A DNA stretch of 39,933 nt from a virus. Positions 24 through 36,611 of the stretch are shown in pieces (within the stretch, counting starts at the first letter, position 1; every line of letters starts with the position of its first letter). Below the pieces are notes generated by a model. That model was not told where the DNA came from, ran no database searches, and worked only from the letters and a program-made list of their open reading frames with translations. The stretch spans positions 1 to 39,933 of IMG/VR virus record IMGVR_UViG_3300047409_000026; one strand, 5' to 3'. The translations under genes and the position numbers were made by a program.

Positions 24-566
24 ATGGCCATTCCGTCGAGGCCGAAGCAGATCGCGAGGATTGCTGAATTCCTTGAAGATCCCGCCAATGACGAACGCAG
101 TGTCACTGACGTGGCAAAGCTGATTGTTGACGGCATGTACGACATGTGGACGAGAGGCGAGTCTTCACCTCCGATTCCCTTGACGCCAGGACTGGCGTTC
201 AAGGCGCCCATGGTGTCAAAGATCTACCATGTCGGCTGGATGGGTGACATGTGGTGGGGATCCAAGCTGGGTACAGTCTCGACAGTCTGGATCATCACCG
301 CTGACTCCGACTATGGCACTGTGATGCCTGTCGGCGCACCATTCTGGCGAGTGGTGACACCGAGCACCGCCAAAAGCGGTGCACCGGGCAACAATGCTGA
401 TGGATGGAAGCCTGGCGACAAGGTCTCTATGGGCCAGAGGGCCCATAGCTATGAGATCGTGGCCGCCGGGGACAAGTCCGTCCTGATGCACAAGCAGGAT
501 CATCCAGTCCTGATTCATGCCGAGTCTAACGCTGGGCTGAAGAAGAACTACAGGAGAGAGAACTAG
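24..566 (+). CDS. Hypothetical protein (180 aa)
   Basis: ATG start preceded by a strong AGGAGG ribosome site. The N-terminal 45 residues look helical; the middle is rich in Trp and Gly (a GDMWWGSK stretch near residue 75) and beta-like. No family recognised. The next gene starts 1 nt after the stop, so they are probably co-transcribed. A perfect 9-bp hairpin with an AGAG loop lies in the coding sequence at 427-448 and a 7-bp one at 364-382. Confidence 0.7.
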   Translation: MAIPSRPKQIARIAEFLEDPANDERSVTDVAKLIVDGMYDMWTRGESSPPIPLTPGLAFKAPMVSKIYHVGWMGDMWWGSKLGTVSTVWIITADSDYGTVMPVGAPFWRVVTPSTAKSGAPGNNADGWKPGDKVSMGQRAHSYEIVAAGDKSVLMHKQDHPVLIHAESNAGLKKNYRREN

Positions 567-567
567 A

Positions 568-969
568 ATGGCTGACTTCAAGACCGGCGACATCGTGACC
601 TTCGCCCCAACGGAGCGTCTCTACGTCGTAATGAAGACCGAGGATGACGGATCCTTCTGGGTCGCTCAGAAGGATGAATACGATGACGCGAAGGGCTCCT
701 GCCCCGGCATCGAGATATACCGCGAGAGCCTGGCTGACCGCCAGAAGAATTACGTCAACTATGCGCCGACCCCAAAGCCCACCTTCGAGGTGGGCAAGAA
801 GTACCGCTGGCAGGGAGTGTCCTCAGATGGCGTGTACTACGAAGTGATCGATGTCAAGGTTGACCCGAGTGGCAAGAAGGCATTCATCACGCACCGCTAC
901 GATGACAACCAGTTCCGCAAGATGTCATTCCTCTACCCGCCTAGCTTCGCCGACATGGTTGAGGTGTGA
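568..969 (+). CDS. Hypothetical protein (133 aa)
   Basis: ATG start just after the upstream stop, with an AGGAGAGAG ribosome site inside the upstream gene. The protein is acidic and soluble, with alternating beta-like segments (GDIVTFAPTERLYVV and VGKKYRWQGV) suggesting two small barrel-like units. No family recognised. Its stop overlaps the next start as GTGA. Confidence 0.7.
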   Translation: MADFKTGDIVTFAPTERLYVVMKTEDDGSFWVAQKDEYDDAKGSCPGIEIYRESLADRQKNYVNYAPTPKPTFEVGKKYRWQGVSSDGVYYEVIDVKVDPSGKKAFITHRYDDNQFRKMSFLYPPSFADMVEV

Positions 970-1166
970 GTATCTGGGTCTGGGCCTGGATCCTTGTCGG
1001 CCTCTCGGCCGCTCTCGCCGCTCTCGCCGAGTATTATCGCACCGGTCGTGATGATATGGCCGCGTGGTGCCTGTTCATCAGCGCGAAAGTCTGGGAAGAC
1101 GACAAGACCGCCGAAGAAATCCTCGGCGGCCTGAAGTCTTTCGTTATCGACAAGTCTGAGCTGTGA
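966..1166 (+). CDS. Small membrane protein (66 aa)
   Basis: GTG start overlapping the previous stop (GTGA). Residues 3-21 (IWVWAWILVGLSAALAALA) form one hydrophobic helix, followed by a soluble acidic tail of about 45 residues; a single-pass inner-membrane protein is likely. Last gene of this rightward group, directly followed by a terminator hairpin. Function unknown. Confidence 0.65.
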   Translation: MSIWVWAWILVGLSAALAALAEYYRTGRDDMAAWCLFISAKVWEDDKTAEEILGGLKSFVIDKSEL

Positions 1167-3432: not shown

Positions 3433-3837
3433 TTGGCCAACTACGAAATCTTCATGCAGGAAATGGGCTACAAGAAGCCCGACGACTGGAGAGCTGACGC
3501 CAAATGCGTCGGCCATCCGTCGGAACTGTTCGAGTTGTCGGAAGCCGACAGCCCTCAGGCTGTCGGTATGACCCTCAGTGAGCTAGCTGAGCACAACCGT
3601 CTCAACTTCATTCAGGCAGGCGAGATCTGCATCGAGTGCCCAGTCTTCTGGCAGTGCAAGGAGGACGCCACCGATGAGGATCGCCGGTGGACAGTCCGGG
3701 CGGGTGAACCGCCCACGGGGATCCAGTATCAGTGCAGTCGTGGCCACATCCTTGACGAACCCGGTCGCTGCGTCGAGTGCAAGCGCCAGGTGATGAAGGA
3801 CTACAGAGCCAAGATGAAGGGCCTCAAGTCGGCCTGA
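3433..3837 (+). CDS. whiB-like: WhiB-like Fe-S transcription regulator (134 aa)
   Basis: TTG start with CGGAGGAAA ribosome site. It carries the Wbl pattern: WRADAKC near residue 24, then AGEICIECPVFWQC with CxxC-x5-C near residues 63-73, then WTVRAGEPP near 86 in place of the usual G[VI]WGG turn. The four cysteines would hold a 4Fe-4S cluster and the protein would bind the principal sigma factor. The C-terminal extension (CSRGHILDEPGRCVECKRQ) adds a second possible zinc site not usual in short host Wbl proteins. A 9-bp in-gene hairpin is at 3545-3566. Confidence 0.85.
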   Translation: MANYEIFMQEMGYKKPDDWRADAKCVGHPSELFELSEADSPQAVGMTLSELAEHNRLNFIQAGEICIECPVFWQCKEDATDEDRRWTVRAGEPPTGIQYQCSRGHILDEPGRCVECKRQVMKDYRAKMKGLKSA

Positions 3838-4192: not shown

Positions 4193-5023
4193 ATGATCCT
4201 ATCCCACATGAGCTTCAGCGCTCTCAGTCAGTATGAATCATGTCCTCGGGCATGGTATCTGTCGAAGTACGTAAAGGCGCAGCCCTCTATGACGTACTTT
4301 TTTCCTCTCGGCTCGGCGGTTCATAAGTCCATCGAGATCTACATCGAAACCGGAGATACCCCCAACTTCGAATCTATTTTCTATCCGCTCATCCGTGAGC
4401 AGATGAAGATCGATCCGGATGACGTCAACTGGCTCTCCGGTGGGCCGAAGGACAACCCGACCGTACGCGGTCGGGCGGTAGAGATTGGTAAGGCGTGCGT
4501 CGAAAAGGCGATTACGTTCCTCTCCGATCTCGATGTGTGGGAAGTGGAGTACGACGCAACGGGCATGCTGCCCGGATGCGAGGTTCCCATCAAGGCGTTC
4601 ATCGACATCGTTGGTGAACACAAGAAGCATGGTCCGGTGATAGTTGACTGGAAGACTGGCAAGCAGAAGCCCAAGACGAACCTCCAGTTGGAGACGTACG
4701 CAGCCCTTCTGTCCCAGCCTTCCGTCTCCGGCAATGACCATCCCTTCACGGAGCATGGCAGCCTGGCCTTCACTGGCCTGTGGGCGATGCTTCATCCCGA
4801 AGCATCAACTGCACGCAAGGTCGATCTGACTGGCGTGGATCCGAGCGCTCTAGGCGCTCGGTATCAGAGGGCGTTCGAGCAGATCAAGAAGCGTGTGTGG
4901 AAGCCGAACCCTGGCTTCGATTGCCGGTTCTGCATCCAGGCTCCGAACTGTAATGTGGAGTCTCCCGGTACGGCTCGGTCAGACTACTACGACAAATCAA
5001 CTACAGATGGGATACCTTTCTAG
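4193..5023 (+). CDS. RecB/Cas4-like PD-(D/E)XK exonuclease (276 aa)
   Basis: ATG start with a GGAG site. Conserved features of the RecB-nuclease/Cas4 family: SALSQYESCPRAWYLS near residue 10, GSAVHKSIE near 43, the catalytic core VIVDWKTGKQK near 150 (D..K) and a QLETYAAL helix near 165. Cysteines at SCPRAW and at the C-terminal DCRFCIQAPNC resemble the four that hold a 4Fe-4S cluster in Cas4/AddB. Likely 5'-3' or recombination-associated DNA exonuclease. The protein ends TTDGIPF, strikingly like the SSB C-terminal tail (DDDIPF). Hairpin at 4841-4861. Confidence 0.85.
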   Translation: MILSHMSFSALSQYESCPRAWYLSKYVKAQPSMTYFFPLGSAVHKSIEIYIETGDTPNFESIFYPLIREQMKIDPDDVNWLSGGPKDNPTVRGRAVEIGKACVEKAITFLSDLDVWEVEYDATGMLPGCEVPIKAFIDIVGEHKKHGPVIVDWKTGKQKPKTNLQLETYAALLSQPSVSGNDHPFTEHGSLAFTGLWAMLHPEASTARKVDLTGVDPSALGARYQRAFEQIKKRVWKPNPGFDCRFCIQAPNCNVESPGTARSDYYDKSTTDGIPF

Positions 5024-5223: not shown

Positions 5224-5384
5224 GTACCTTCTCGGATCATCTTGAGGCCATACGAGCAGCCGTAAGGGCTGCATACGATGACGGCTGCTGGTTCGATGAC
5301 AGCCATGGCGAGACGCTGTACGAAATCGAACTGAACTTCGGCGGGCGCTATGAGCCCATCATCGTCAAGGGAGAGGCGGTCTAG
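5220..5384 (+). CDS. Hypothetical protein (54 aa)
   Basis: GTG start overlapping the previous stop (GTGA), reading VSTFSDHLEAIRAAVR and ending IIVKGEAV. Acidic; no family recognised. The next gene starts on the last base of its stop (TAGTG). The regular overlaps support this small gene. Confidence 0.55.
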   Translation: MSTFSDHLEAIRAAVRAAYDDGCWFDDSHGETLYEIELNFGGRYEPIIVKGEAV

Positions 5385-5755
5385 TGGCTGAGATCATCTT
5401 CAGGTTCCCCTCGAAGGTTCCCTACGGTTATGTAGAACTTCGGACTACCACTGACGATAACCCCACTCCTGAGGTCCTGGCTCAGCAGTACGCTTCTGAT
5501 TTCCTCCGGTACAAGGAGGCGGAGGCAGCCGCCCTGGCGGCTGGTCCGAAGAAGGTCGGTAAGCCTGAGCCTGACATCAATCAGGAGCTGTCCCAGGAGG
5601 AGGCTGGCAATCTCATTAAGCATGACCTCGGAGCAACTGAGGTCATGGATGAGGCTCCGTGGGACAACCCTCCTGCGGCTCCGACAGCAGACCCGTGGGC
5701 AGACAAGAGTGAGCCCGCCACTCCAGTCGCGGATAGCGACTGGGACTTCGGTTAA
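5384..5755 (+). CDS. Hypothetical protein with acidic, SSB-tail-like C-terminus (123 aa)
   Basis: GTG start within TAGTG. Residues 1-50 are beta/alpha (AEIIFRFPSKVPYGYVEL), followed by an Ala/Pro/Asp-rich flexible tail with DEAPWDNPP, DPWADKS and a final DSDWDFG. Long acidic Pro-rich linkers ending in an aromatic-Asp-Phe tip are typical of single-stranded DNA-binding partner proteins. It precedes a putative ssDNA-binding protein, so a replication accessory role is inferred. Confidence 0.6.
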   Translation: MAEIIFRFPSKVPYGYVELRTTTDDNPTPEVLAQQYASDFLRYKEAEAAALAAGPKKVGKPEPDINQELSQEEAGNLIKHDLGATEVMDEAPWDNPPAAPTADPWADKSEPATPVADSDWDFG

Positions 5756-5779: not shown

Positions 5780-6217
5780 ATGACTGACATCAACGACGAA
5801 CTCTCCGGCTCCATCGTCCCCAAGGGCGTGAACTTCTCCACTCCGGGGACAAAGCACGTTATCCTCATCAAGAGCGTAGCCAAGGTTGCCGTGCGGGAGT
5901 TCGTGGATGGCCGTCCGGCAGAGCAGTTGTACTTCCAGAACCAGAAGAAGGTCCGCCAGTCCGAGCTGAATCTTCAGCTCCCGTACGAGCCCATCCCTTG
6001 CTGGCTCGTCATCGGCACCCTGAAGGACGGCAAGGAAGTCTCCCTTCGGCTAGAGGGCGGCAAGCTGAAGGCCGCTAAGGCGGCCATCCGTGAGGGTGGT
6101 CGGCTGGTCGTCAACGGCATGATCGCCATCGAGTACAGCGGCGACGACCCTGAGAGCAAGGGCAACTTTCCGAAGAAGGTCTACGTCGTTCAGCTGAAGG
6201 CGCCCAAGGGTGAATGA
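5780..6217 (+). CDS. Putative ssDNA-binding protein (145 aa)
   Basis: ATG start 24 nt after the previous stop; this spacer carries another AACTACAG copy. Beta-rich protein (KHVILIKSVAKVAVREF, then WLVIGTLKDGKEVSLRL, then GRLVVNGMIAIEY) compatible with an OB-fold, placed among replication genes. No SSB signature is certain, so the function is an inference from fold-like pattern and context. Confidence 0.5.
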   Translation: MTDINDELSGSIVPKGVNFSTPGTKHVILIKSVAKVAVREFVDGRPAEQLYFQNQKKVRQSELNLQLPYEPIPCWLVIGTLKDGKEVSLRLEGGKLKAAKAAIREGGRLVVNGMIAIEYSGDDPESKGNFPKKVYVVQLKAPKGE

Positions 6218-6378: not shown

Positions 6379-7236
6379 TTGAAGACACTCCTCCGGAGTG
6401 TGAAGCGGGGGCTATCGGCTGGGGAACCTCTCCCCAGCCCTTGGCCCATCTTCGACTCCAAGAAGATCTCATTCCGGCGATCGTCCATGCAGATGATTGC
6501 TGGTCCCCCTGGCTCCATGAAGACCATCATGATGCTCAACATCGTGAGGGCCATGGGGCCCGACGTTCCGACTCTGTACCATAGTTCGGACTCCGACGAC
6601 TTCACCATGGCTACCCGCGTGAACAGCATGATGAAGGACATGGAGAGCAACGACTCAGAGCTTGAGATCATGCTCAATCCGGACTTGGCCACTGACGCGC
6701 TCAAGCAGTTCAGTCATGTCAAGTGGTCATTCCATGCAGCCCCAACCCTTGACCACATGTGGCGGGAGGCTGAAGCCTTCCGCGAGGTTCACGGGACCTA
6801 TCCTCACCACACCATCATCGATATTCTCATGGATGTCGATTACGAGGGCGCTGGGGAACAGAACTACTGGGCTCTGATGGCGGAACTGAAGGTGCTCTCA
6901 CGAGACCAGCAGACCGCTCTTACTATCGTTCATCACACCAGTGAGAGCGCTAAGGGCGGGAGTCCGCCTCCGCGTTCGGCCATTATGGGTAAGGCGAACC
7001 AGCTTCCGACCTGCATCCTTACTCTTTGGGGCGACTCCCGTAACGGCACAATCGATGTCGCGGTGGTCAAGAACCGTTTCGGTCCCCAGGATCCGATGGC
7101 CCTTCACCCGTTCCGGATGACGGCTAAGCCATCGGTCTGCCAGATCGAGGAAATGCTTCAAGAAGATGTGCCGCTCCTGTTCCACGACGGCGTCGGAGTC
7201 GACGCCGGTATCAATCTCTTCGAGGAGGATGACTGA
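6379..7236 (+). CDS. RecA-superfamily ATPase (RepA/DnaB-like helicase or loader)
   Basis: Walker A GPPGSMKT lies about 50 residues from the N-terminus and a Walker B-like HHTIIDILMDVD about 80 residues further on, followed by LTIVHHTSE (sensor-like) and a C-terminal LPTCILTLWGD segment. This layout matches the AAA_25/RepA branch of RecA-fold ATPases and phage DnaB-like helicases. With the primase genes downstream, a replicative helicase or loader role is likely. I chose the TTG at 6379, directly after the upstream stop; an ATG at 6346 would overlap the upstream gene by 32 nt. Confidence 0.75.
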   Translation: MKTLLRSVKRGLSAGEPLPSPWPIFDSKKISFRRSSMQMIAGPPGSMKTIMMLNIVRAMGPDVPTLYHSSDSDDFTMATRVNSMMKDMESNDSELEIMLNPDLATDALKQFSHVKWSFHAAPTLDHMWREAEAFREVHGTYPHHTIIDILMDVDYEGAGEQNYWALMAELKVLSRDQQTALTIVHHTSESAKGGSPPPRSAIMGKANQLPTCILTLWGDSRNGTIDVAVVKNRFGPQDPMALHPFRMTAKPSVCQIEEMLQEDVPLLFHDGVGVDAGINLFEEDD

Positions 7237-8123: not shown

Positions 8124-8501
8124 ATGACTACCTTAAGGAACAGCCGAGCTGACAAGGAGTGGCCCACCTTTCTGGTGGGCCCCATCCTTGAGTACTACGG
8201 CGGAGATCTTCCGATGGAAGACAGAGGATGGCGTCCGTACAAGTGTCCCTTCCATGGGGACCGTACGGCGTCGTCCTCCGTCAACACCATCTTGAATGTC
8301 TTCGTATGTCACACATGTGACATGAAGGGCAACGCAGTACAGCTGATCATGAAGAAGGAGCAGATACCATATGGCGATGCTCTCAAAAGAGCTCAAGAGA
8401 TCAGTGGTCGAACTGATCAAGGCGTCGATGGATCAGATTACTCAGGGCGTGCCAGTCGGCGATCAGGTTCGAGGGCTTTCAAGCGAACTTGGAAGCGATG
8501 A
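8124..8501 (+). CDS. Primase zinc-binding domain (N-terminal part of a split DnaG-like primase)
   Basis: Contains the DnaG zinc motif: CPFHGDRTASSSV near residue 40 and FVCHTCDMKGNAVQLIMK near 60, i.e. C-H-C-C ligands. After residue 90 the protein becomes a Ser/Arg/Gly-rich linker and ends TWKR, without the catalytic part. The Toprim part is in a separate gene at 8873, with an HNH gene between. In intact phage primases both parts are one chain, so this looks like a gene split by HNH insertion. Confidence 0.75.
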   Translation: MTTLRNSRADKEWPTFLVGPILEYYGGDLPMEDRGWRPYKCPFHGDRTASSSVNTILNVFVCHTCDMKGNAVQLIMKKEQIPYGDALKRAQEISGRTDQGVDGSDYSGRASRRSGSRAFKRTWKR

Positions 8502-8886
8502 ATGCTGGGATTGGGGAGTTGAGAGGTATGCCAAGGCTAGGGTCGGAGGTAAAATGGTGCCCATTGGTGCCGCGATCGTTGGCACCCTCGGCACTGCCCT
8601 AGTCGCCAGGCACTCATGCGACAACCCGCCGTGCATCAATCCTAACCACCTCGCCCCCGGGAGTCATCTGGATAATGCACAAGACAAGGTCGAGCGAGGT
8701 CGCTCGACCGCCGGAGATCGACATCCTTCAGCCAAGTTGAGCTATAGGGATGTCTCTGAAATAAGGGATCGCTACGAGATCTGCGGATATAATCGAAACA
8801 ACGGCGGCGAACTTGCTTCAGAGTTTGGCGTGACTCGCGATCACATTTCCGCAATTATGAGAGGCAAGTATCGTGCCTCAGCTTAG
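8371..8886 (+). CDS. HNH homing endonuclease inserted in the primase gene
   Basis: The family core begins at DECWDW (about 8496) and includes RHSCDNPPCINPNHL (the H-N-H motif), then LDNAQDKVERGRS and HPSAKLSYRDVSEIRDRY with a C-terminal helix-turn-helix (ASEFGVTRDHISAIMRGKY). The N-terminal 40 residues overlap the primase N-part in another frame and may not be translated; the true start is uncertain. Its stop overlaps the start of the primase C-part by 14 nt. A 9-bp hairpin is at 8688-8709. Confidence 0.75.
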   Translation: MAMLSKELKRSVVELIKASMDQITQGVPVGDQVRGLSSELGSDECWDWGVERYAKARVGGKMVPIGAAIVGTLGTALVARHSCDNPPCINPNHLAPGSHLDNAQDKVERGRSTAGDRHPSAKLSYRDVSEIRDRYEICGYNRNNGGELASEFGVTRDHISAIMRGKYRASA

Positions 8887-9505
8887 CGTGCCGCAGAAAA
8901 GATCTCTGCAAAGAGCAACGACTCAGTACCAGAATCACTTGGACGAGGCGCTGGAGTATCTGGCCGGTCGAGGAATCGATCAGGAAGCCGCACGTTCAAG
9001 AGGACTTGGCGTAGTACGTGACCCGATCCCGGGTCACGATCACCTGGTTGGCAGGCTGTCGATCCCGTATCTCACGGACTCTGGCACGGTCAATATGAAC
9101 TTCCGCTGCATGCAGGATCACTCCTGCAAGGAACTCAAGCACCCGAAGTACAAGATGTGGCAGGGACTTGAGACCAACTTGTACAATGTCAAGGCGTTGG
9201 CTGATGCCAAGTCGGCCATCGCGGTGGCCGAGGGAGAGATAGACGCTCTCAGCTCCACACTTGCTGGCATCCCCTGCGTTGGCGTCGGCGGTGCCAGCAA
9301 GTGGCTGGATCACTGGAACAATATCTTCGAGGACTTCGAGCGTGTATACGTATGGCAGGAGGGGGATGATGCGGGTGAGAAGTTTGCCGATCGCGTTGTC
9401 TCCGAAGTAAACGCCATCCGGGTGACGCTTCCTTCCGGTGAGGATGTCAATTCCATATGGGTAGCCTCCGGGGCTTCCGCACTGCGAGCTAGGATCCGAT
9501 CGTGA
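8873..9505 (+). CDS. Primase catalytic (Toprim) part of a split DnaG-like primase
   Basis: GTG start within the HNH gene end. Reads NHLDEALEYLAGRGID, VGRLSIPYLTDSGTVNMNFR, HPKYKMWQG, then the Toprim motif SAIAVAEGEIDAL near residue 118 and VYVWQEGDDAGEKFADR near 158 (D-x-D-like). This is the usual order of the DnaG catalytic core. It lacks the zinc domain, which is encoded at 8124; the two products would have to associate to prime DNA synthesis. Confidence 0.8.
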   Translation: MPQLSVPQKRSLQRATTQYQNHLDEALEYLAGRGIDQEAARSRGLGVVRDPIPGHDHLVGRLSIPYLTDSGTVNMNFRCMQDHSCKELKHPKYKMWQGLETNLYNVKALADAKSAIAVAEGEIDALSSTLAGIPCVGVGGASKWLDHWNNIFEDFERVYVWQEGDDAGEKFADRVVSEVNAIRVTLPSGEDVNSIWVASGASALRARIRS

Positions 9506-9648: not shown

Positions 9649-9880
9649 GGTCTTCATCATCCTCAACGAGTCGGAGCCGAGGGGCGTTGGCTCTCCGGTA
9701 ACGGAGGTCACTCCCTACTGGTATGACTCACTTCAGGGAGCGATGGACGCTCTGGCGTCCATCGGTGAGCCGTACGGGGTCTTTCTGGGTGAGGATGACA
9801 GCAGCATCAAGATCCCGGTCGACGGAACGTCTCTTGAGTATGATGAGTACTACATCGTAGAGCTGGAGAAGGGGGAGTAA
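9641..9880 (+). CDS. Hypothetical protein (79 aa)
   Basis: ATG start 8 nt inside the previous gene. Acidic alpha/beta protein (MSEVFIILNESEPRG..., YYIVELEKGE). The coding sequence holds a perfect 10-bp hairpin with TCTG loop at 9741-9764. No family recognised. Confidence 0.6.
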   Translation: MSEVFIILNESEPRGVGSPVTEVTPYWYDSLQGAMDALASIGEPYGVFLGEDDSSIKIPVDGTSLEYDEYYIVELEKGE

Positions 9881-10313: not shown

Positions 10314-10527
10314 ATACGTTGACCGATACGGAGACGCCACAGCGACCGTCTGCGGGCTTCCGTATCGGGCGGCCTACAGGGCCACACGCAAGAGCGACGG
10401 ATTCTACTACATGTACATCCAGTATTCGAACATGCAAGGCCGGAAGTGGATCAATCCCCAGAACGTTATCTTCAAGAGGAAGATAACGGAGATACTCGTG
10501 AATAAGGTGACAGACATTGTCCAGTGA
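10306..10527 (+). CDS. Hypothetical protein (73 aa)
   Basis: GTG start overlapping the previous gene by 8 nt. Aromatic, beta-rich N-terminal half (RYGDATATVCGLPYRAAYRA, GFYYMYIQYS) and a basic helical end. No family recognised. Confidence 0.55.
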   Translation: MSEYVDRYGDATATVCGLPYRAAYRATRKSDGFYYMYIQYSNMQGRKWINPQNVIFKRKITEILVNKVTDIVQ

Positions 10528-10864: not shown

Positions 10865-10896
10865 AAAGAAGCCCCCTCATCAGAGGGGGCTTCTTT
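10865..10896. terminator. Strong bidirectional terminator between the two genome arms
   Basis: Perfect 14-bp inverted repeat, AAAGAAGCCCCCTC, ATCA loop, then its complement. T-runs occur at both ends, so it can stop the rightward early operon and the leftward late operon, which converge here (stops at 10857 and 10898). Confidence 0.9.
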
Positions 10897-11095: not shown

Positions 11096-11325
11096 TAAGC
11101 TCCTTCTGGCCAGATGATATTGATCTGCTCTGCTGTGGCATCATCGATGATGCCGGTAGTCCGGAGTCCGAACAGAGACTGAATCCCACGGATATGAGAC
11201 TTGGTCTCTTCATCCATCTCTCCGGACTCATTGCAGCGAAGTACTCGCTGCACGTACTTGACAGCCTCATGCTCCTTCTCGGTGGTCGGAGTGATGATTC
11301 GACGGTCATACCAGAACGGGAGCAT
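11095..11325 (-). CDS. Peptidoglycan-binding-like protein (76 aa)
   Basis: Residues 18-72 resemble one PG_binding_1 unit: helix VKYVQRVLRC, then GEMDEETKSHIRGIQSLFGL and TTGIIDDATAEQIN. Without a catalytic domain it may be a wall-binding subunit for the distant endolysin or a virion-associated protein. Sits in a tight group with the holin and a membrane coiled-coil protein. Confidence 0.6.
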   Translation of the reverse strand: MLPFWYDRRIITPTTEKEHEAVKYVQRVLRCNESGEMDEETKSHIRGIQSLFGLRTTGIIDDATAEQINIIWPEGA

Positions 11326-22560: not shown

Positions 22561-22561
22561 G

Positions 22562-22825: not shown

Positions 22826-22828
22826 AAT

Positions 22829-22899: not shown

Positions 22900-22900
22900 G

Positions 22901-22971: not shown

Positions 22972-22972
22972 A

Positions 22973-23377: not shown

Positions 23378-23383
23378 GCTGAC

Positions 23384-23432: not shown

Positions 23433-23436
23433 AGAG

Positions 23437-23507
23437 TCCGGATGGAAGGAATCGAACCTCCGACGCCTGTTCCCAAAACAGGGGTTATACCATTTCACTA
23501 CACCCAG
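23437..23507 (-). tRNA. tRNA-Pro(TGG)
   Basis: Acceptor CTGGGTG/CATCCGG paired with wobbles, C1-G72 as in Pro tRNAs. Anticodon stem CCTGT/ACAGG, loop TTTGGGA, anticodon TGG. First tRNA in transcription order. Confidence 0.9.
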
Positions 23508-26784: not shown

Positions 26785-27677
26785 TAGCTACCACCGTTCA
26801 TCATCTGCATCATCGCATCCCAGTAGGTTGTGGCAGCCTGATACTTGCCGTACTCGGAAGTGTCCTTCGCTCCTTCCAGCACGGAGTTCTGGAGAGCTTC
26901 AGCCGATACGCCACCAGTCGTGGTGGTGTTCGAGCTCGTCGTCTCCAGTTCTCCGGTAGACAGGTTCGGATTGTAGGTCGTGGTCGTGGTAGCACTGGTC
27001 GGATTGGCCCGCTCAAGGGCGTTGATGGATGCCCTGTACTGAGAGAACTCCTTGGCAGTCGGAGCCCGCCCAAGGGCCTGAGTGAGAACTGAAGTAGTGA
27101 GAGCCCTGGCGTCTTCCGGAGAAGTCAGATCCACACTCTTCTGAGTGGTCGTCTTGGTCAGCTTGCCAAGGTATCTTACCCTCTCTCCGGTTGCTACGTC
27201 ATATTCCCAGTCGCCCTTCTTGACGGTTCCGAACTTGTTGCCACTGTTGGAGTAACTGTTCATTACGTCAAAAGGCGTCCAGGTCTTACCGCTGGTCTGG
27301 CTGATTCCCCACGCACTCTTGAGCTGGTCATCCCAGGCGGCAAGAATCTCAGGCATTCCCATACCCACGTCGAATCCGGGGATCTTGCGCAGGATGCCAG
27401 TGTTGACAAACTGCCTAAGCTCCGACTGGTTCCACGTGGTAGGAAGACCACGAGCCTTGCTGTACTGGAGATCGAACGTTCCCTGAGTGGAACCCCCAAG
27501 ATAGTTGGGGGTTCCTTCCTTGGAGATGCCGAACTTGATGACTGAGTTGTCTGTGATACTGCCGCTTGAGGCGGCAGTTCCTGTCGACAGCCCGCCCTGA
27601 GCCAGCTTCATAAGATCTTCGTTTGACATATTCGTCAGGTCGAGCCCTCCAGTTGCGGAGGGATTCGGAGTAGTCAT
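26784..27677 (-). CDS. Internal virion protein (297 aa)
   Basis: Starts on the base after the NlpC gene's frame (overlap of 1 nt). Low-complexity Ser/Thr/Gly stretches (TSATTTTTYNPNL, TSSNTTTTGGVS) link helical parts; SPEDARALTTSVLTQALGRA near residue 190 is a conserved-looking helix. Contains an 11-bp hairpin (27489-27515) and an 8-bp one (27558-27578). Confidence 0.5.
   Translation of the reverse strand: MTTPNPSATGGLDLTNMSNEDLMKLAQGGLSTGTAASSGSITDNSVIKFGISKEGTPNYLGGSTQGTFDLQYSKARGLPTTWNQSELRQFVNTGILRKIPGFDVGMGMPEILAAWDDQLKSAWGISQTSGKTWTPFDVMNSYSNSGNKFGTVKKGDWEYDVATGERVRYLGKLTKTTTQKSVDLTSPEDARALTTSVLTQALGRAPTAKEFSQYRASINALERANPTSATTTTTYNPNLSTGELETTSSNTTTTGGVSAEALQNSVLEGAKDTSEYGKYQAATTYWDAMMQMMNGGS
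27489..27515. repeat. 11-bp perfect in-gene hairpin
   Basis: GGAACCCCCAA, 5-nt loop GATAG, then the exact complement. The longest of the stem-loops found inside coding sequence; the strand encoding protein reads through it. Confidence 0.7.
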
Positions 27678-27686: not shown

Positions 27687-30600
27687 TTACTGGAGGGTAT
27701 CGTTACTGAGGTACCGGTTGAATACTTCATTGAACTGGGTGTCGGAGTTGATGAAGCGAGTCTGTTCCTGCTGCCAGGCAAGGCCGATGGCGGCATTGTC
27801 CCCAGTGGGAACGCCACGCTCGTCTACTGCAAACCCTCCGACATTGCCAGTGCTTTCGAGAAGTTGCTTGTAGATGGCTCTTCGGGCCAGATACGCCTTC
27901 ATGACAGGAACATCAGTCCTCAACGGATCATTCGCAAGCTTGTCGGTATTGACAAGCTGAGTGAACTGATTGATCCTACGGGATACGGCACCACTGTCAG
28001 TGGTATTGAAATCCTTCTCCCATTCAGGGAACTTCTGACTGAGCTGCTGGATAGCCATCCTCTTCACGCTCAGGAGCCCCTCGGCTCCTGAGGATGTATA
28101 GGACTTGTATCCGGACCGGAGAAGAACTCCATCGAGAACAAGCTTGATCTTGTTGTACTGCTGCCAGCCAAGATCCTTCTGGTTCTCCCTGACGGCATCC
28201 ATCGCCGACTGAGTCTCGCGGATCTTCTTTCCTCCGATGGACTCATTCATCTGCTTGGCATAGACAGAAGAGCTGAACTTCCCCTTCTGCTTGCCCATGG
28301 TCAGATAGCCAGCCATGTCAGGATCCTGAGCGATCAGATCCTTGTACTCGTCCGCCGCAAGCATGGCCTCCCGAGTGGGGGCAATGCCGATGCTCTTCGA
28401 GAGGGCGGCAGTGAAGACGAAGTAGTCAGATCCATAAGTCTTCAGGAACTGATCCTGAGCAGCCTTGGGATCTGCCTCCTGAAGCTTCTTGTACTGATCC
28501 ACGTAGAACTGGTACGGAGTGCCAGTAAGCGGAGTACTATTCGTCTGGGCTGGGCTTGCCCAGCTCGTCAGCATCTTCAGCCACATGAAGCTCTTGGCAT
28601 CGCTCTCCACCTGCTTGATGTCAACAGGAGGTCCACCATTCTTGGACTCCGCCACATACTTCTGGTATGTGGCAAGGTACGCCTTCTGGTACTCGACATT
28701 GTCGGCATCATCCGTTGTGGCTGCCTCATAGATCTGACGCATGTACTTGGGAGTAATGGCGTCGATCGTGCCAGTGGGGCCGTAAGGCAGAACCTTTGCC
28801 CACTGAAGGAAGTCGCCGACCTGCGGCGACTTGTTCGCCAGGTAGGATCCGGAGATCTGCACAACAGGTCCTCCACCAGGATTGAACCATGGATCGCCAG
28901 GCAGGATGGTGTTCATTGCGGAGATCCGGATCTTCGATCCGTAACCTGGCAGAACATTGAGCACGCTCTTGTTCTTGGCATCTCCTGGAACCTGAAGGTT
29001 GAAGACTCGGTTCTCGATGGGCACAAACTGCTTCGATGCCTTGCCGTCCACTCCGACGACGGTCGCATACCCGTCCATACCGACGTGGTTACCGTCAGTA
29101 TCGGTAATCAGGTTTGCTGCGACCGGGGCATTGTATATCTTTGATGCGGAGTTGACCAGCTCGGGCTTCTCTGCAATCATCCCCCCCCATCGCTGAAGCC
29201 CATCGATATGCGCCCCGAGGAACGGGGCGATAAACCTCAGGGCCTCAGTTGCCGTGGTCCTTGCGGGATCGTAGGCAATCTGGGAAATGTCCTTCATGGC
29301 CATCTGGTGGGACTTCTGCTGCATCTTGTTGAGGGTGCCAACATCGATCTTGCCAGTATCCTTGCCGACCTTTGCGTAGTGAGCCAGCTCCTGATCAACC
29401 AGCTCTCGCATGCGTGCCTGCTGGGCACGCATGTAGATAGGCTGACGAGACATGACATCACCAGGGATAGTTCCAAGACGCTTGTAGCCCTTGGCTACAA
29501 GATCATCGAGATACCTTGTAGCACTCTGCTTCGAGAACATCTTCGTCAGAGGCTTGGTCTCCTCGCCGTGGACAACGGGGAAGTCATCCTTGCTGATCGC
29601 TGCCCTGATCTCATTCTCAGAGATATCCTCACCCTTGGCAATCTTGGCCTGAAGGCCAGTGCCTTCAGGAAGATAATCATCCAGGGCAATCTTGACTGCC
29701 TGAATCAGGTCATCAGGATCATGCCCCAGTCGCCCAAGAGCACGGACGTGATCCTTGCCTTCGGCCGTCCTCATCCACTTCATGGCATTGGTAAGACTTG
29801 GATCTTCCGCCACGATACGGAAGAGGCGATCCTGCCCGAACTGGTGGTTCAGAACATGAAGCCAGTCCTCCATGTGGCTAGGATCGCTCGGCTTGATGCC
29901 GGTCCAGGAGCCAGTCTTGATGGCGCGGGCAGTATCGATAGCCTCACCACGCGCGAATAGGGTTGCGGCAGCGGCGTCAGAAGTTACCTGGCTCCTTGGG
30001 ATCGAGTATTCCCAATCCTTGCTGAATGCACCATGGAGCTTAATACCCTTGTAGGTGTAATCACTTTCACCAAGCCTCTTGCCCGTCGCATCCTTAGCTG
30101 CCGCTAGGATGGCGTTGGCGTAAGTGCTGTGCTCATCAATCACATCCTGGTGATCCGCCGCCTTCTGACGCAGGCGAGCGATCTCATCAGTATAGAACTT
30201 GCCCTTCTTGTTGACAGCAACGCCAGCACTGCCGTACTTGATGCGGTACTTGTCGAGCTTCTTCTGAATCGAAGCGAGTTCCCTGGTGGTCTCGTCAAGA
30301 TCGCTGGCCTCAGCCTTGATGCGTCCCTGCACGATCGGCCAAGCACGGTTCACCCTGATACGCTCGGCCTTCTGGCCGAGCTTCTGGGCAACCTGGATGG
30401 CGTTACGATCCTCCAGATTAACGATTGACTTGCCAGTGATGCCGGTATGGCTGCCAGTGCCGAGAAGTGCAGCCACATGCTGGGTTCTGTTTCGGAGGAA
30501 GTTGACACCACCAGCGCCAGCATCAGCGATAGTTGCCAGAACTCCGAACTTGACCGCCCTGAGAGCAATCTCCTCAGATGGAGCCCTGAGAACATAGCCA

Positions 30601-32864
30601 GGACGCAGGAGAGTCGTCGCCTTCCACGAGGTATTCAGCAGATCAGCCACGGCCATCAGGCCGTCGGCCGCCTTGAGGGCGCCCTTCTTCTGTGCAGCGA
30701 AGTAGCCATTACTGCGAGAGAGGAACCTCTCGAACTCCTTGACCGGCAGGAGAGGCTCAGCCATGCCGAGCTGGGTCTTCGCCAGTGGAGTCGGAACAAG
30801 GGCCTTGCCATCCTCCACGAGGTCAACCCTGCGAGTTCCAGTGCGTGACATCGTGGTAACCGCCTTGGTGGCAGAAAACATCTGATCAGTACGTCCACCC
30901 GTAAGCCCAGCCATCACGGTCTGGAATCCAGACTTGCGCATCTCGTCAAGCAGACGAACTGAGTCGTCGTCGAGATTGCCATAGCGACCGGCCATGTGGC
31001 CAATCACCGCACTGTGAATAGTATCCAGAGCCTTGGACTTCTCCAGCTTGGTTGGAGCCTTGGAGTAGGCATCAATCATGCCCATCCGGGCATCTTCGCC
31101 CAGTCCGGGAACCTGCTTCAGCATGTCAACGACACGATCGACAGCATCAACCTCATTGTGGTTGATGAAGCCCTGAGGCGCCCTGTCGCCGAAGGACTGG
31201 ATAACCCTGAGAGGCATGGCGTAATAGCCGTTCCGGATGAACCTGGATGCCAGATTCCCGCCAATGGCCTTGCGGCCACTGCGGTCAAGGGCCTGCTTCA
31301 TGTAAGCAATGTCGGCAGACTTCTCGGTATCCTTGAGGGCAAGAGGACCCATACGGTACAGAGTCTTCAGGGTTCCGAACAGATTCGACTCGCCGGGCAG
31401 AAACTCATCAACGGACCTTCCTCCGTTAGCCCCAAGGAGGAGCGAGAAGGAGGCATCCTTGGCCTGAAGATCGGCGACCTGTCGTCCGGCGGACTCAAGC
31501 TGGGCAGCCTTCCAGTTCTTCGCGAACTTATAGGGCGTGGTATCAACCACACTGCCCGCCTTGATGGCGGCAGACTTCAGCGCTCCGTACTCGGACACAG
31601 CCTGACGGTAGATGTCGGCCTTCTGGGCAGTCTTTCCCCATGCAGCATCCCATGCCTGCTGAGCTGCGGCACCGACGGAAGGGCGCGGAGTCGGAGGAAC
31701 AACAACCTTCCCCTTCTTGGTCACACCCTCAAGCGTCGCACCCTCTGCCTCCTTCTGGAAGTACTTGATGATGTCATCGGAGAACTTGACAGACTGAAGG
31801 AAGGTCCGGTTGTCGTTCATGTCCCCGAGCATGGAGACCAGACTCTGATTGGACTCGTTCAGCTTGGGAAGTGCGTCGGCATCGCCCATGGCGAACCGAA
31901 CAATGTTAGGCATGTCCTCACGGGAGGCATGGGCAAGCACCTCGGAATACTGACTGGCAAAGGGGTTGGCCCTGCGGCCAACACCCCAGATCGAGTGAGC
32001 CCTGATGGCAGCGGGAGACTTGCCCTCAGCCCAGTCGAAGAAAGTATTCAGCCTGCTGGAGGTGGAAACATCCTCGGCAGTCTTCCCGCCAGCGACGATT
32101 CCCTTAGTGGCAAGCTCCGCGCCTTCACCTGCGAGCTTGATGGAGCGGGCAGACTTGACAGCCTGCGCCCCGTACTTCAGTGCGGCATAGCCAGGATCGG
32201 CCATAGTGACAAGACCGAAGTCGATGGCTCCAGTGCCGACCGTGTACTTCCACCCAGCCTTGCTGCGCCAGTAGTCGGTGTCGTAGAGAAACCTGTCCTG
32301 CTGAGTCTTGGCCTGATCCTTCTCCTGCTGGGACAGCCCTGTATCGATGAGCGCCGGTACGCTGACGCCGTTGCCGGTCGCCGCATCAGTGGCGGACGCA
32401 TTCATGTAAGCCTGCCCGGGAGAGATATTCTCCGCCTGGCCGTACGCCTCACTCCACGCACTACCGGAGAGGAACTGGCCATAGCCCTCGGTCTCGGCCT
32501 TGCCGGACACGAGGAACGCCGTAGACAGCGGCTGGGACAGGGCCTCACTGTAGACCCAGTGCATTCCGGTGGCAACCTTGTCTACGGGCCACCACACAAC
32601 CTGCTTGGTCACGCCATAGCCAGGAATGTTGGACAGAGCGCCATCAACGCCCTTGCCGAATGAGGTGATGCCATTCATGATGTTTGTCATGAACCCATTG
32701 CGAGAGTTGCGCTCCTGCTGGGCGTCCGCAGCAACCTGTCGCTTCTGGAGCTCCTGAGTAGCCAGGAGTGAGGCCGGAATTGTTGCTACCTGCACTGCGG
32801 TAGACGGGTCTGCGTACAGACCCTGACCCGCGTCGGACATGTTCTCTTCCCACCACTTCGACAT
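27687..32864 (-). CDS. Giant internal virion / ejection protein (1725 aa)
   Basis: Longest gene of the window. Mixed alpha-helical protein with a possible membrane-active N-terminal part (IPASLLATQELQ, KQVVWWPVDKVATGMHW) and many Lys-rich linkers. No kinase, polymerase or transglycosylase motif was seen. Its length, helical nature and place among the NlpC gene and its relatives fit a podoviral core protein ejected ahead of the DNA. At least seven perfect in-gene hairpins, for example 28069-28092 and 29409-29433. Confidence 0.6.
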   Translation of the reverse strand: MSKWWEENMSDAGQGLYADPSTAVQVATIPASLLATQELQKRQVAADAQQERNSRNGFMTNIMNGITSFGKGVDGALSNIPGYGVTKQVVWWPVDKVATGMHWVYSEALSQPLSTAFLVSGKAETEGYGQFLSGSAWSEAYGQAENISPGQAYMNASATDAATGNGVSVPALIDTGLSQQEKDQAKTQQDRFLYDTDYWRSKAGWKYTVGTGAIDFGLVTMADPGYAALKYGAQAVKSARSIKLAGEGAELATKGIVAGGKTAEDVSTSSRLNTFFDWAEGKSPAAIRAHSIWGVGRRANPFASQYSEVLAHASREDMPNIVRFAMGDADALPKLNESNQSLVSMLGDMNDNRTFLQSVKFSDDIIKYFQKEAEGATLEGVTKKGKVVVPPTPRPSVGAAAQQAWDAAWGKTAQKADIYRQAVSEYGALKSAAIKAGSVVDTTPYKFAKNWKAAQLESAGRQVADLQAKDASFSLLLGANGGRSVDEFLPGESNLFGTLKTLYRMGPLALKDTEKSADIAYMKQALDRSGRKAIGGNLASRFIRNGYYAMPLRVIQSFGDRAPQGFINHNEVDAVDRVVDMLKQVPGLGEDARMGMIDAYSKAPTKLEKSKALDTIHSAVIGHMAGRYGNLDDDSVRLLDEMRKSGFQTVMAGLTGGRTDQMFSATKAVTTMSRTGTRRVDLVEDGKALVPTPLAKTQLGMAEPLLPVKEFERFLSRSNGYFAAQKKGALKAADGLMAVADLLNTSWKATTLLRPGYVLRAPSEEIALRAVKFGVLATIADAGAGGVNFLRNRTQHVAALLGTGSHTGITGKSIVNLEDRNAIQVAQKLGQKAERIRVNRAWPIVQGRIKAEASDLDETTRELASIQKKLDKYRIKYGSAGVAVNKKGKFYTDEIARLRQKAADHQDVIDEHSTYANAILAAAKDATGKRLGESDYTYKGIKLHGAFSKDWEYSIPRSQVTSDAAAATLFARGEAIDTARAIKTGSWTGIKPSDPSHMEDWLHVLNHQFGQDRLFRIVAEDPSLTNAMKWMRTAEGKDHVRALGRLGHDPDDLIQAVKIALDDYLPEGTGLQAKIAKGEDISENEIRAAISKDDFPVVHGEETKPLTKMFSKQSATRYLDDLVAKGYKRLGTIPGDVMSRQPIYMRAQQARMRELVDQELAHYAKVGKDTGKIDVGTLNKMQQKSHQMAMKDISQIAYDPARTTATEALRFIAPFLGAHIDGLQRWGGMIAEKPELVNSASKIYNAPVAANLITDTDGNHVGMDGYATVVGVDGKASKQFVPIENRVFNLQVPGDAKNKSVLNVLPGYGSKIRISAMNTILPGDPWFNPGGGPVVQISGSYLANKSPQVGDFLQWAKVLPYGPTGTIDAITPKYMRQIYEAATTDDADNVEYQKAYLATYQKYVAESKNGGPPVDIKQVESDAKSFMWLKMLTSWASPAQTNSTPLTGTPYQFYVDQYKKLQEADPKAAQDQFLKTYGSDYFVFTAALSKSIGIAPTREAMLAADEYKDLIAQDPDMAGYLTMGKQKGKFSSSVYAKQMNESIGGKKIRETQSAMDAVRENQKDLGWQQYNKIKLVLDGVLLRSGYKSYTSSGAEGLLSVKRMAIQQLSQKFPEWEKDFNTTDSGAVSRRINQFTQLVNTDKLANDPLRTDVPVMKAYLARRAIYKQLLESTGNVGGFAVDERGVPTGDNAAIGLAWQQEQTRFINSDTQFNEVFNRYLSNDTLQ
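28069..28092. repeat. 10-bp perfect in-gene hairpin
   Basis: CTCAGGAGCC, CCTC loop, then the exact complement, inside the giant virion gene. Confidence 0.65.
29409..29433. repeat. 10-bp perfect in-gene hairpin
   Basis: CATGCGTGCC, TGCTG loop, then the exact complement, inside the giant virion gene; two more 9-bp hairpins follow at 29481-29501 and 29648-29669. Confidence 0.65.
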
Positions 32865-33494: not shown

Positions 33495-33710
33495 TTACTT
33501 GGCCATCGTCCCGCCGCCGCGCGTAGGCGCGTCGTGCGAGTGAAGGTATCCGCTCCAGTCGCCAGACCAGTTCTTCGCGGTCTGGCCACGCTGGTTGTTG
33601 ATGCTGGTGGAAACGAGAGGAGCCGCAATGTGCGGCTCAAGAGTACGTCCCTTGAGCGTCTCCCAGTCTCCGGAACGTGGGTGATCTCCTGCGAACCAGG
33701 TATCTGCCAT
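33495..33710 (-). CDS. Hypothetical protein (71 aa)
   Basis: ATG at 33710 (MADTWFAGDHPRSGDWE) with AAGGAG 7 nt upstream; a GTG one codon earlier is the alternative. Hydrophilic, His/Trp-rich. Coupled to the upstream zinc-ribbon gene. Confidence 0.5.
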   Translation of the reverse strand: MADTWFAGDHPRSGDWETLKGRTLEPHIAAPLVSTSINNQRGQTAKNWSGDWSGYLHSHDAPTRGGGTMAK

Positions 33711-33892: not shown

Positions 33893-35688
33893 CAGATAGC
33901 CGCCTGCCTACTGGTTCTTGCGCTCATCGTTGCTTCGCCCTTCCCAGTGAGTCCGGAGAGGAGCTGCTGAAGGTCCATGCCCCCACCCTGCTGCTGACCT
34001 CCTGGCGCCCCCTGTGGGGCCGCTGCGGGCTGGCCTGGTACTGCGCCTGCCTGAGGAGCTGCTAGGGCGTTAGAAGCCCCCTGAGGGGCTTCCTTGGGCT
34101 TGAATGCCTTGAGTACTGCATCATGGACAGAGGAACCCTTCTCGCGTTCCTCGATCAGCTTCGCTACCTTGGTGAGCGCGTCGATTGGATCCATGCCCTG
34201 CTGGGCCATCGGAAGAATACCCTGCATGTAAGCCATGATCCCCTGCTTCAGGGAGTCAGTGAACTGCTCATTATCGATCTGGGTCTGTAGCTGAACCACA
34301 TCGAGGTCCATTGGCAGCTGGCGCTGTACGAAGTCGCGAGAGACAAGCTGATCGCCTCTGAGCTGGAGAAGTGCAACGATGGCGCGAGCAGGGTCCTGCC
34401 CTGCCGCAAATCCATACGTGACATCGACTGTGTAGTTTCCATCAATATCCTTTGCCGGAGTGTAGGTCTCCTCGAAAGGAGTGCCCTGCACGACGCCGCT
34501 GATGGTCTTGCTCAGACCTGGCCACAGCTTCTCATCCATCTCCATGGCCAGCTCAAGCGCCCTGGCAAGAGCCTGGGCGATCACGTTCTGACCAGTGGAG
34601 ATAACGGTGTTGAATCCACCCATGAGGGCCTGGACTCCACGACCGGTGATGATTGATGCGTCGATGTTTCCGGAGCGGACCTCCGGACTTCTCATAGCCT
34701 GACGTGCTTCCGCATCCAGAAGCTGATTCTCCTGGAACGCATACTGAGGTACGTCGAGTCCAACCCGCTGAACACCACCAGGATTGTCAGTGCGGATGAT
34801 GGCGTCGTCTCCGAATGTCATCTTCTGCACATCGCGAGGGACTACGAGCGGAGCGCGAACACTCTTCTCGGTAGCCTCAAGGCCAAGAAGTGCCATGCGC
34901 GCCTTGGCTAGCTGAACCCAGATGGCGTCATCGAAGGCACCACGGATCTCCTGATCAAAGCCAGGACGCTTCGCAATGGAGACATAGATCTTGCCGAGAG
35001 GATTGGGCATGGAGTCCACGACCACGTTTCCGTGGGCGGGGAGATACATGGTGATCTGATCGGCATCGCAGTACTTGACAACTTCGATCTCACGCTGAGC
35101 CCAGCCCATGCTGGCCTGGCCACCCACCTCGTTGGACTGAAGTACTCGGAGAAGGTGTGGGAACTTCGCCACGAGGTGAATCGCTTCCTCACGCCATACC
35201 TTGGTATAGCTTCGGACTCGGCCGTACAGATCAAGTTCTGGGTAGACTCCCATCGGATTCTCTACCCTGATGCGTGGGATCTTGTTCTCGAAGTCCGGCT
35301 CAACCACATACACCGACATGCCGTAAGTGTTGTAGTAGTCGCAGAAGGTTACCTGCTTACCGGCGTTGAGCTGACTGTTCTGTGCGTAGTGATTGGCGAC
35401 CTTGGTCCTCCTGCCGGAGAACCTCTTGGCCTTGCTTGTGGTGGTGACACCGGAAGCGCAATTGATGCTGGGCATCGCTCCCATGACTTCCGCCATGTCG
35501 CGAGCACTGGTATCGATCATGTTGGCCACGATGGGCTTGGGCCATGCGTCAGGCATGGCACCCGGCATGACCGACTCAACATTACCGGAGCGAACATCGT
35601 GAACGTCACGATGACGCTGGTCTCGTTCGGATGCAGCACGGCGCAGAGTCTCCACCTTTTGGCTGACCTTTGTGATCTCAAGTGCCAT
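33892..35688 (-). CDS. Portal protein (598 aa)
   Basis: Position after terminase and endolysin, size, and features such as PRIRVENPMGVYPELDLYG, FQENQLLDAEARQAMRSP, GRGVQALMGGFNTVIS and a Gln/Pro-rich tail (AAPQGAPGGQQQGGGMDLQQ) match podoviral portal proteins. It would form the ring at the DNA entry vertex and dock the terminase. Hairpin at 34073-34092. Confidence 0.75.
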   Translation of the reverse strand: MALEITKVSQKVETLRRAASERDQRHRDVHDVRSGNVESVMPGAMPDAWPKPIVANMIDTSARDMAEVMGAMPSINCASGVTTTSKAKRFSGRRTKVANHYAQNSQLNAGKQVTFCDYYNTYGMSVYVVEPDFENKIPRIRVENPMGVYPELDLYGRVRSYTKVWREEAIHLVAKFPHLLRVLQSNEVGGQASMGWAQREIEVVKYCDADQITMYLPAHGNVVVDSMPNPLGKIYVSIAKRPGFDQEIRGAFDDAIWVQLAKARMALLGLEATEKSVRAPLVVPRDVQKMTFGDDAIIRTDNPGGVQRVGLDVPQYAFQENQLLDAEARQAMRSPEVRSGNIDASIITGRGVQALMGGFNTVISTGQNVIAQALARALELAMEMDEKLWPGLSKTISGVVQGTPFEETYTPAKDIDGNYTVDVTYGFAAGQDPARAIVALLQLRGDQLVSRDFVQRQLPMDLDVVQLQTQIDNEQFTDSLKQGIMAYMQGILPMAQQGMDPIDALTKVAKLIEEREKGSSVHDAVLKAFKPKEAPQGASNALAAPQAGAVPGQPAAAPQGAPGGQQQGGGMDLQQLLSGLTGKGEATMSARTSRQAAI

Positions 35689-35699
35689 GCTTCACCTCC

Positions 35700-36611
35700 T
35701 TACGACTTTGGAACCTTGAGCTTGGCCCAGCTGGCCTTGCCCGGATATCCATCTGCGGCAGATCCCTCATAACCCAACTTGCGCTGGTACCAGGCATATG
35801 CCTTTACGTCAGCTCGGGTGAACTCCTCGCTCGGCCCGACCTTGTAACCCTTGTATCCCTCGGCGACGAGCCGCTTGCCCATTGCCTTGACTAGAGCGTG
35901 CTTTCGTCCCAGCCGGAAGAAACCCACGCCAGGGAAAGGGGCATAGACTGGGACAGGCTTAGGCTCAGGCTGACTGGAGGCGCCATCAGCGCCTCCATCA
36001 ATCACCACCTGGACAGAAGAACGGAAGTCCTTCATGTCAATGCCCTTGGGATCCGACTTCCAGTCGGACCACTCGTCATGCCCGATAGTGGACTTGGCCG
36101 ACCAGCCATAGTGGCGGCAGATGGCTGCCGCCGCCTTGACCATGGCAGTTACTTGAGCCGCTGGCCATGGATCGACGCCATCGCCCTTGTTCACACACTC
36201 GAAGCCGTAGAAGCAGTCATTGCCATCCACCGCGCCGGACGAACCTTCATGCTCGTTCGTGGCCGGAGGATAATCCCCATAGGACTCATTGATCACTGCG
36301 GTCTTGACATCAGGATCTCCACCACCGGCATGATTGGCGCGGCCCTTCGACATCAGATAGACCACGCCGGACTTGTCGATCACTCCGTGACAGAGCGGCC
36401 CCGGAAGGGCCGAACTGCCGTCATAACAGTAGTCAACGATCCCCGAAGTCCCTGAAGCGGTGTGATGGATAACCACTCCGTTGACAGGCCCGAAGTCCTT
36501 GCCGGTAGCGGCGTCACGCTCATGCGTGCGCCAGTCCTTGTATTCCACCACCTTGAGACCTTCGGCCTTGAGGGCCGCAAGCAGTATGTCTGCGGTCATA
36601 GGAGTTGCCAT
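35700..36611 (-). CDS. N-acetylmuramoyl-L-alanine amidase endolysin (303 aa)
   Basis: Amidase_2 domain at about residues 40-200: zinc ligand His49 in VVIHHTASG, ANHAGGGD near 97 and STIGHDEWSDWKSDP near 180. A Pro-rich linker (QPEPKPVPVYAPFPG) leads to a C-terminal domain with EFTRADVKAYAWYQRKLG, a peptidoglycan-binding-like unit. Start at ATG 36611, overlapping the terminase stop (TAATG). Cuts the wall at lysis. Placed far from the holin. Hairpins at 35975-35997 and 36113-36132. Confidence 0.85.
   Translation of the reverse strand: MATPMTADILLAALKAEGLKVVEYKDWRTHERDAATGKDFGPVNGVVIHHTASGTSGIVDYCYDGSSALPGPLCHGVIDKSGVVYLMSKGRANHAGGGDPDVKTAVINESYGDYPPATNEHEGSSGAVDGNDCFYGFECVNKGDGVDPWPAAQVTAMVKAAAAICRHYGWSAKSTIGHDEWSDWKSDPKGIDMKDFRSSVQVVIDGGADGASSQPEPKPVPVYAPFPGVGFFRLGRKHALVKAMGKRLVAEGYKGYKVGPSEEFTRADVKAYAWYQRKLGYEGSAADGYPGKASWAKLKVPKS

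Follow-up and report, generated by a model that had tools for sequence, protein, structure and literature searches.

Short inverted repeats across a Streptomyces phage relative

The window analysed here, IMG/VR virus record IMGVR_UViG_3300047409_000026 at its full length of 39,933 bases, is kin to the Streptomyces podoviruses of the Beephvirinae (actinobacteriophage cluster BF), and carries along its length a large excess of short perfect inverted repeats able to form small-loop hairpins. A megablast search with the window returned 29 records, all of them Streptomyces phages (29/29), with identities of about 75-78%; the name Beephvirinae follows the taxonomy given on two fetched named relatives, and the term podovirus the description of one cluster BF phage (PMC13097060). 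The window belongs with these Beephvirinae-like podoviruses by its terminase, portal, capsid, tail and replication genes, which are homologous to theirs. The late genes are encoded on the minus strand and the early genes mostly on the plus strand; the early ones include genes for DnaB, a primase, a Cas4/RecB-like exonuclease, a RusA-type resolvase, a metallophosphoesterase and a sigma-like factor. The gene calls are our own, made by codon usage, and their starts and overlaps are imperfect.

Across the whole window there are 54 perfect stems with arms of at least 8 bp and loops of 3-6 nt (24 with arms of at least 9 bp), where dinucleotide shuffles give an expectation of 2.6±1.7. An initial annotation had listed about 25 such stems; every one of its intervals is a perfect inverted repeat (25/25), but the list was incomplete and the effect is larger than it had estimated. 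The hairpins found by inverted-repeat search are as follows, with arms in bp and loops in nt; strand is entered as "." throughout, and ORF denotes an open reading frame.

427-448: perfect hairpin, arm 9, loop 4, within ORF 24-566
777-795: arm 8, loop 3, ORF
1172-1193: arm 9, loop 4, intergenic
1745-1762: arm 7, loop 4, GCC-CTCA-GGC on the plus strand, sigma-like gene
1983-2002: arm 8, loop 4, ORF
2896-2915: arm 8, loop 4, metallophosphoesterase gene
3545-3566: arm 9, loop 4, ORF 3433-3837
4456-4475: arm 8, loop 4, exonuclease gene
4786-4806: arm 8, loop 5, exonuclease gene
4841-4861: arm 8, loop 5, exonuclease gene
5723-5743: arm 8, loop 5, ORF
6417-6439: arm 9, loop 5, near the start of the DnaB-like ORF
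7188-7207: arm 8, loop 4, DnaB-like gene
8161-8181: arm 8, loop 5
8688-8709: arm 9, loop 4, ORF
9017-9038: arm 9, loop 4, primase gene
9741-9764: arm 10, loop 4, ORF
10464-10488: arm 10, loop 5, ORF
10865-10896: arm 14, loop 4, between two genes that converge; probably a common bidirectional terminator, outside the coding set
11232-11252: arm 8, loop 5, ORF
11446-11464: arm 8, loop 3, ORF
12730-12751: arm 8, loop 6, 649-aa ORF
13452-13474: arm 9, loop 5, 649-aa ORF
14297-14319: arm 9, loop 5, ORF
14774-14793: arm 8, loop 4, ORF
15589-15611: arm 9, loop 5, ORF
15937-15957: arm 8, loop 5, ORF
17084-17103: arm 8, loop 4, gene edge
18503-18523: arm 8, loop 5, minor tail gene
19984-20005: arm 9, loop 4, intergenic
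21509-21534: arm 11, loop 4, intergenic
24196-24217: arm 8, loop 6, ORF
24967-24985: arm 8, loop 3, ORF
26388-26407: arm 8, loop 4, NlpC/P60 tail gene
27489-27515: arm 11, loop 5, ORF
27558-27578: arm 8, loop 5, ORF
27937-27958: arm 8, loop 6, 1725-aa ORF
28069-28092: arm 10, loop 4, 1725-aa ORF
28651-28673: arm 9, loop 5, 1725-aa ORF
28810-28832: arm 9, loop 5, 1725-aa ORF
29409-29433: arm 10, loop 5, 1725-aa ORF
29481-29501: arm 9, loop 3, 1725-aa ORF
29648-29669: arm 9, loop 4, 1725-aa ORF
30362-30381: arm 8, loop 4, 1725-aa ORF
33620-33638: arm 8, loop 3, ORF
34073-34092: arm 8, loop 4, portal gene
35541-35559: arm 7, loop 5, portal gene; at the same position in 24/44 aligned relatives, with a mostly constant stem and a variable loop
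35595-35613: arm 8, loop 3, portal gene
35975-35997: arm 9, loop 5, endolysin gene
36113-36132: arm 8, loop 4, endolysin gene
38269-38291: arm 10, loop 3, terminase gene
38397-38415: arm 8, loop 3, terminase gene
38515-38537: arm 9, loop 5, terminase gene
39732-39751: arm 8, loop 4, end region, non-coding

Most of the stems lie within genes, as had been claimed of all that were listed, although some are intergenic, such as that at 10865-10896, and a few are in the tRNA region. Forty-four are wholly intragenic, against 3.9±1.7 (maximum 8 in 60) in shuffles that exchange synonymous codons and preserve the protein, a check that the initial annotation had proposed; with arms of at least 7 bp the intragenic figures are 83 observed and 14.3 in codon shuffles. 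Only loops of 3-6 nt show the excess, which is greatest at 4-5 nt (3.9, 7.6, 7.9 and 4.5 fold for loops of 3, 4, 5 and 6 nt) and falls to near background from 7 nt upwards; mirror repeats in the window are likewise at background, as are inverted repeats whose loops span 10-30 nt. Chance, base composition or codon usage thus has practically no prospect of accounting for the stems, being refuted by both kinds of shuffle, the mirror repeats and the long-loop controls.

The loops are biased in their closing pairs and edges. C-G closing pairs outnumber G-C pairs by 45 to 16 in the window and by 286 to 97 in a non-redundant set, and loop edges favour T..G or C..A. The bias towards particular loop words that had been described is real in so far as GCC-CTCA-GGC is shared by the stems at 1745, 2896 and 3545, but the words are otherwise diverse and the true biases are those of the closing pair and loop edge. 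At 8688, 11446 and 17084 pairing can be extended into the loop, leaving 1-2 nt, and a loop of at least 3 nt restores the description given here.

No two stem sequences are alike, and gaps at hairpins are rare between relatives above 96% identity (2/368 and 2/350), observations that lend no support to a mobile palindromic repeat, one of the three readings offered initially. Repetitive extragenic palindromic (REP) and related mobile elements are also small hairpins, but these share a sequence, are extragenic and spread by insertion (PMC3733652), whereas the present stems are diverse and intragenic and arise by substitution.

Intragenic transcription terminators or pause sites, acting for example against antisense transcription, would have stems of similar size, and T is enriched just downstream of the intergenic stems (41% T at +1). 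The coding stems, however, have neither a T-tract nor any adjoining motif that we could find, T after them being no higher than 24%, and their spectra of loop length and mismatch are unlike those of terminator-like hairpins in other DNA. In addition, the stems are not concentrated at gene ends, and we regard this explanation as very improbable. A survey of perfect inverted repeats in 118,019 genomes, which required arms of at least 10 bp, found mainly intergenic repeats with conserved arms, faster-evolving spacers and, at terminators, spacers of 4-5 nt; those described here are mostly intragenic, with arms of 7-11 bp, and the words phage, Streptomyces and Beephvirinae are absent from the main text of that survey (PMC13155455).

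Distribution among relatives and selection on the stems

Capsid and terminase protein queries were used to fetch 128 loci from relatives; these are partly redundant, and the most important tests were run again with independent pairs or genomes. In loci above 9 kb the excess of stems with loops of 3-5 nt over long-loop controls is usually 5-15 fold, the lowest value being 3.4, and 21 whole or near-whole genomes together hold 758 coding 8-bp stems where codon shuffles give 78.7. Practically all relatives show the excess. Density is the same in late (1.96/kb) and early genes (1.97/kb), with an intergenic figure of 3.5/kb that includes terminators and tRNA arms, and spacing is slightly more even than random (coefficient of variation 0.84 vs 0.945).

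The excess is restricted to one lineage, whose named members infect Streptomyces. The ratio of stems to expectation is near 1 in phages lambda, phiC31 and R4, and 1.3-1.5 in 600 kb of bacterial DNA, mostly from Streptomyces. A sample of 168 viral contigs, each 4 kb or longer, gave only two clear positives, both distant relatives with capsids 53-55% identical; a third contig that seemed positive in this survey (L468) proved to be a false positive caused by a TA repeat. On a portal tree the trait is found in a clade of high GC content and in L128 and L130, two deep branches that are likewise high in GC, while the low-GC sister clade shows an excess of only about two-fold. We found no report of such stems in cluster BF phages in the open-licence literature. 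Two side observations belong to these comparisons: phiC31 (L132) contains 12 loopless palindromes (arm at least 8, loop 0) where about 1.5 are expected, structures unlike the hairpins studied here, and a low-GC portal gene (G019:C1:35886-37442) has one in-frame TGA, which would reflect recoding, a sequencing error or decay.

Substitution was compared in independent pairs of close relatives, with inverted repeats having loops of 12-23 nt as controls. The rate at third codon positions in stems relative to flanks is 0.30 (bootstrap confidence interval 0.11-0.54) at 97.5-99.7% identity and 0.56 (0.36-0.82) at 94-97.5%, against 0.95 and 0.98 for the control repeats in the same two bins. Hairpin loops show no such reduction, and between relatives 82-94% identical they change rather faster than the flanks. 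Stems are lost less often and gained more often than controls in each of the four divergence bins. Where both members of a pair are third positions, there is one single change where 16.6 are expected (245 pairs), and in the next bin 3 where 10.9 are expected. Compensatory changes accumulate as divergence grows, such that at 80-84% identity 21/38 double changes retain pairing, against 1/5 in controls. It is therefore the stems, and not the loops, that purifying and compensatory selection maintains, mostly by way of the choice among synonymous codons.

The initial annotation had also called for a check of conservation in related phages. Stems are indeed kept at short divergence, with compensatory changes, but most positions turn over farther out: the majority are not common to the family, and some recur, as does the portal stem at 35541-35559, so that density is conserved while places change.

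Two mutational processes might produce some of this pattern. In the first, neutral hairpin-templated mutation (sequence-directed mutagenesis), template switching perfects imperfect inverted repeats; the process is known to act at the DNA level, symmetrically on the two strands and with a preference for short loops. Sequence-directed mutagenesis was reportedly proposed by Ladoukakis and Eyre-Walker in 2008 for the mildly elevated number of small inverted repeats found in bacteria. Those bacterial repeats resemble the present stems in being short, perfect, strand-symmetric, DNA-level features of coding DNA, but the excess here is about ten-fold in coding DNA, compared with 1.3-1.5 in the bacterial DNA tested. 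Template switching also homogenises repeat arms (PMC8604942). Neutral templating should yield paired double changes at the neutral rate and almost no single ones; we see no double changes in the two closest bins, where it predicts 8.6 and 5.8. Nor does it predict the 0.30-fold substitution rate in stems, or the reduced loss that accompanies the raised gain. It is thus largely refuted already, and we hold it to be improbable.

In the second process paired stems would be shielded from damage to single-stranded DNA (ssDNA) and so mutate less, with some templated correction besides. The faster evolution of loops and the DNA-like thermodynamics described below fit such a shield, but protection alone cannot make a ten-fold excess, the rate of gain is raised as well, and the paired third positions would need a mutation rate several-fold lower in stems; we consider it no more credible than templating, and if anything a shade less so. 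The pattern of stems is due to purifying selection; neither chance nor a mobile repeat nor neutral hairpin-templated mutation explains it.

Action in DNA or in messenger RNA

Several properties of the stems indicate that selection probably acts at the level of DNA. At pairs 3-6 of 9, the core of the stem, G.U is no better tolerated than A.C or other mismatches, and wobble-type pairs make up 29-39% of the single-mismatch excess, compared with 61% in terminator-like hairpins from other DNA, which serve as a yardstick for RNA. In loops closed by C-G, edge enrichments match those of their reverse complements (TG 33x and CA 27x, TT and AA 12-13x, and likewise CC/GG and AC/GT). Context enrichment correlates best with the folding energy of DNA over both strands (rho -0.77) and less well with that of sense RNA (-0.57), and the loop-length profile resembles that of DNA hairpins.

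The principal rival is that the stems fold in messenger RNA (mRNA), affecting transcript stability, the movement of ribosomes or RNA polymerase, or access by Rho or RNase. The stems do lie in transcribed genes and are under synonymous-site selection with compensation, although compensatory evolution is predicted equally by mRNA structure and DNA hairpins; UNCG-type and YNMG loops are moreover commoner in the sense than in the antisense orientation (non-redundant set). The lack of any preference for G.U in the core, the low wobble share and the largely strand-symmetric loop contexts nevertheless argue against it, as do the predicted RNA folds, for which the sense minus antisense difference is +0.27±0.20 kcal/mol and not negative, and the near-background frequency of 7-9 nt loops, which are cheap in RNA. 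We therefore judge action in mRNA to be unlikely, though well short of negligible. Of the readings in the initial annotation, that of an mRNA-stability or RNA-binding element is disfavoured on the same grounds, and that of ssDNA hairpins is the best supported of the three.

Our preferred interpretation, to which we give a probability of about 0.55, is that the stems are genome-wide, position-free DNA hairpins, with about seven or more contiguous Watson-Crick pairs, a loop of 3-6 nt and C-G closure, and that they are selected as such. Some observations weigh against it. Over all closing pairs, T.G is enriched about 20x at the loop edge and C.A 11x, a mild sense-strand bias that speaks for mRNA; what had at first looked like a sense bias became smaller when the null model took the closing pair into account. 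Again in favour of mRNA, single mismatches at 8 bp show a greater excess of G.U (271) than of A.C (171); this weak preference is gone at 9-10 bp, where the tolerance test finds none in the core. In G019, a relative of low GC content, the replication genes are the same but there is no clear excess of stems, so that the need for them is not intrinsic to that gene set, and a hairpin-binding reader protein was not identified among the candidates examined.

Candidate readers and proposed role

The genes and features that bear on a possible reader, or that complete the description of the window, are these.

5384-5755, plus strand: 123-aa protein whose acidic tail looks disordered and ends in DWDFG, by eye recalling tails of the single-stranded DNA-binding protein (SSB) type
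5780-6217, plus strand: 145-aa protein with a predicted OB-like fold (mean predicted local distance difference test score, pLDDT, 81)
21597-23507, minus strand: cluster of 15 tRNA genes among the late genes, with capsid and scaffold genes on one side and tail genes on the other
27687-32864, minus strand: 1725-aa virion-region protein, present in all relatives and very divergent, with identity down to 23%

The 145-aa protein gives weak matches to the ssDNA-binding OB folds of PrgE and Teb1 (E about 0.06-0.1) and is a possible candidate for a phage SSB. As a universal reader of the hairpins it was rejected, being present in only 8/20 relatives. The 1725-aa virion protein was considered as a hairpin-reading polymerase and also set aside: searches of Pfam and PDB sequences gave no match, and its C-terminal half is predicted, in a low-confidence model, to be mostly helical, with no fold match. 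Of the window proteins searched, none was recognised as a DNA polymerase, as is also the case in annotated relatives. The primase of the window is split. An Rfam scan of the window revealed tRNAs only, and relatives have about 15-22 tRNA genes, nearly one per amino acid.

Small-loop DNA hairpins that are read in ssDNA are familiar from primosome assembly sites and the promoters of the N4 virion RNA polymerase, which are sequence-specific sites present in one or a few copies. The stems described here differ in occurring at about 2/kb and in sharing no common sequence or flanking motif; an N4-type system is further disfavoured in that the proteins searched gave no RNA polymerase match in PHROGs, Pfam or PDB. 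A parallel in organization is provided by RNA viruses, in which a genome-wide amount of structure, tolerant of position, is kept through synonymous sites. The stems are likewise genome-wide, position-tolerant and kept at synonymous sites, but they occur in a double-stranded DNA (dsDNA) phage, as discrete short hairpins with the signatures of DNA rather than RNA folding. The term "genome-scale ordered RNA structure" appears in PMC6563262.

A more specific proposal, which we put a little below even odds, is that the stems constitute an ssDNA-hairpin code written over the genes by synonymous codons, at constant density in both operons, and serving a structure-reading step as yet undescribed. The hairpins would fold while the phage DNA is single-stranded, and their even density on both operons and strands would suit the lagging-strand template, resected ends and recombination intermediates. 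Either strand could fold, and the hairpins may then serve as roadblocks or landing sites available at regular intervals, such that one hairpin every few hundred bases would matter and individual places would not. Given the presence of a phage DnaB and primase, the loading of helicase or primase, or priming itself, is a natural candidate and perhaps the most plausible role; alternatively, the hairpins might stop ssDNA exonucleases or the spreading of RecA or SSB. A variant that is equally open, in view of the low-GC relative that has the same genes and no clear excess, is a host-specific pressure, such as that from an actinobacterial nuclease or recombinase.

If the interpretation as selected DNA hairpins is correct, the synonymous sites of an entire phage genome would carry a second layer of information, held in DNA and read by structure and not by sequence. 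With hundreds of independent stems in dozens of genomes, these phages offer a strong data set for the study of selection on DNA hairpins, and the question of codon choice becomes testable in the cultured phages FlowerPower, Immanuel3 and Manuel. Even if the stems should prove to act in mRNA, selected structure of this density would be unusual for a dsDNA phage. The finding hints at a new step in the replication, recombination or defence evasion of actinomycete phages.

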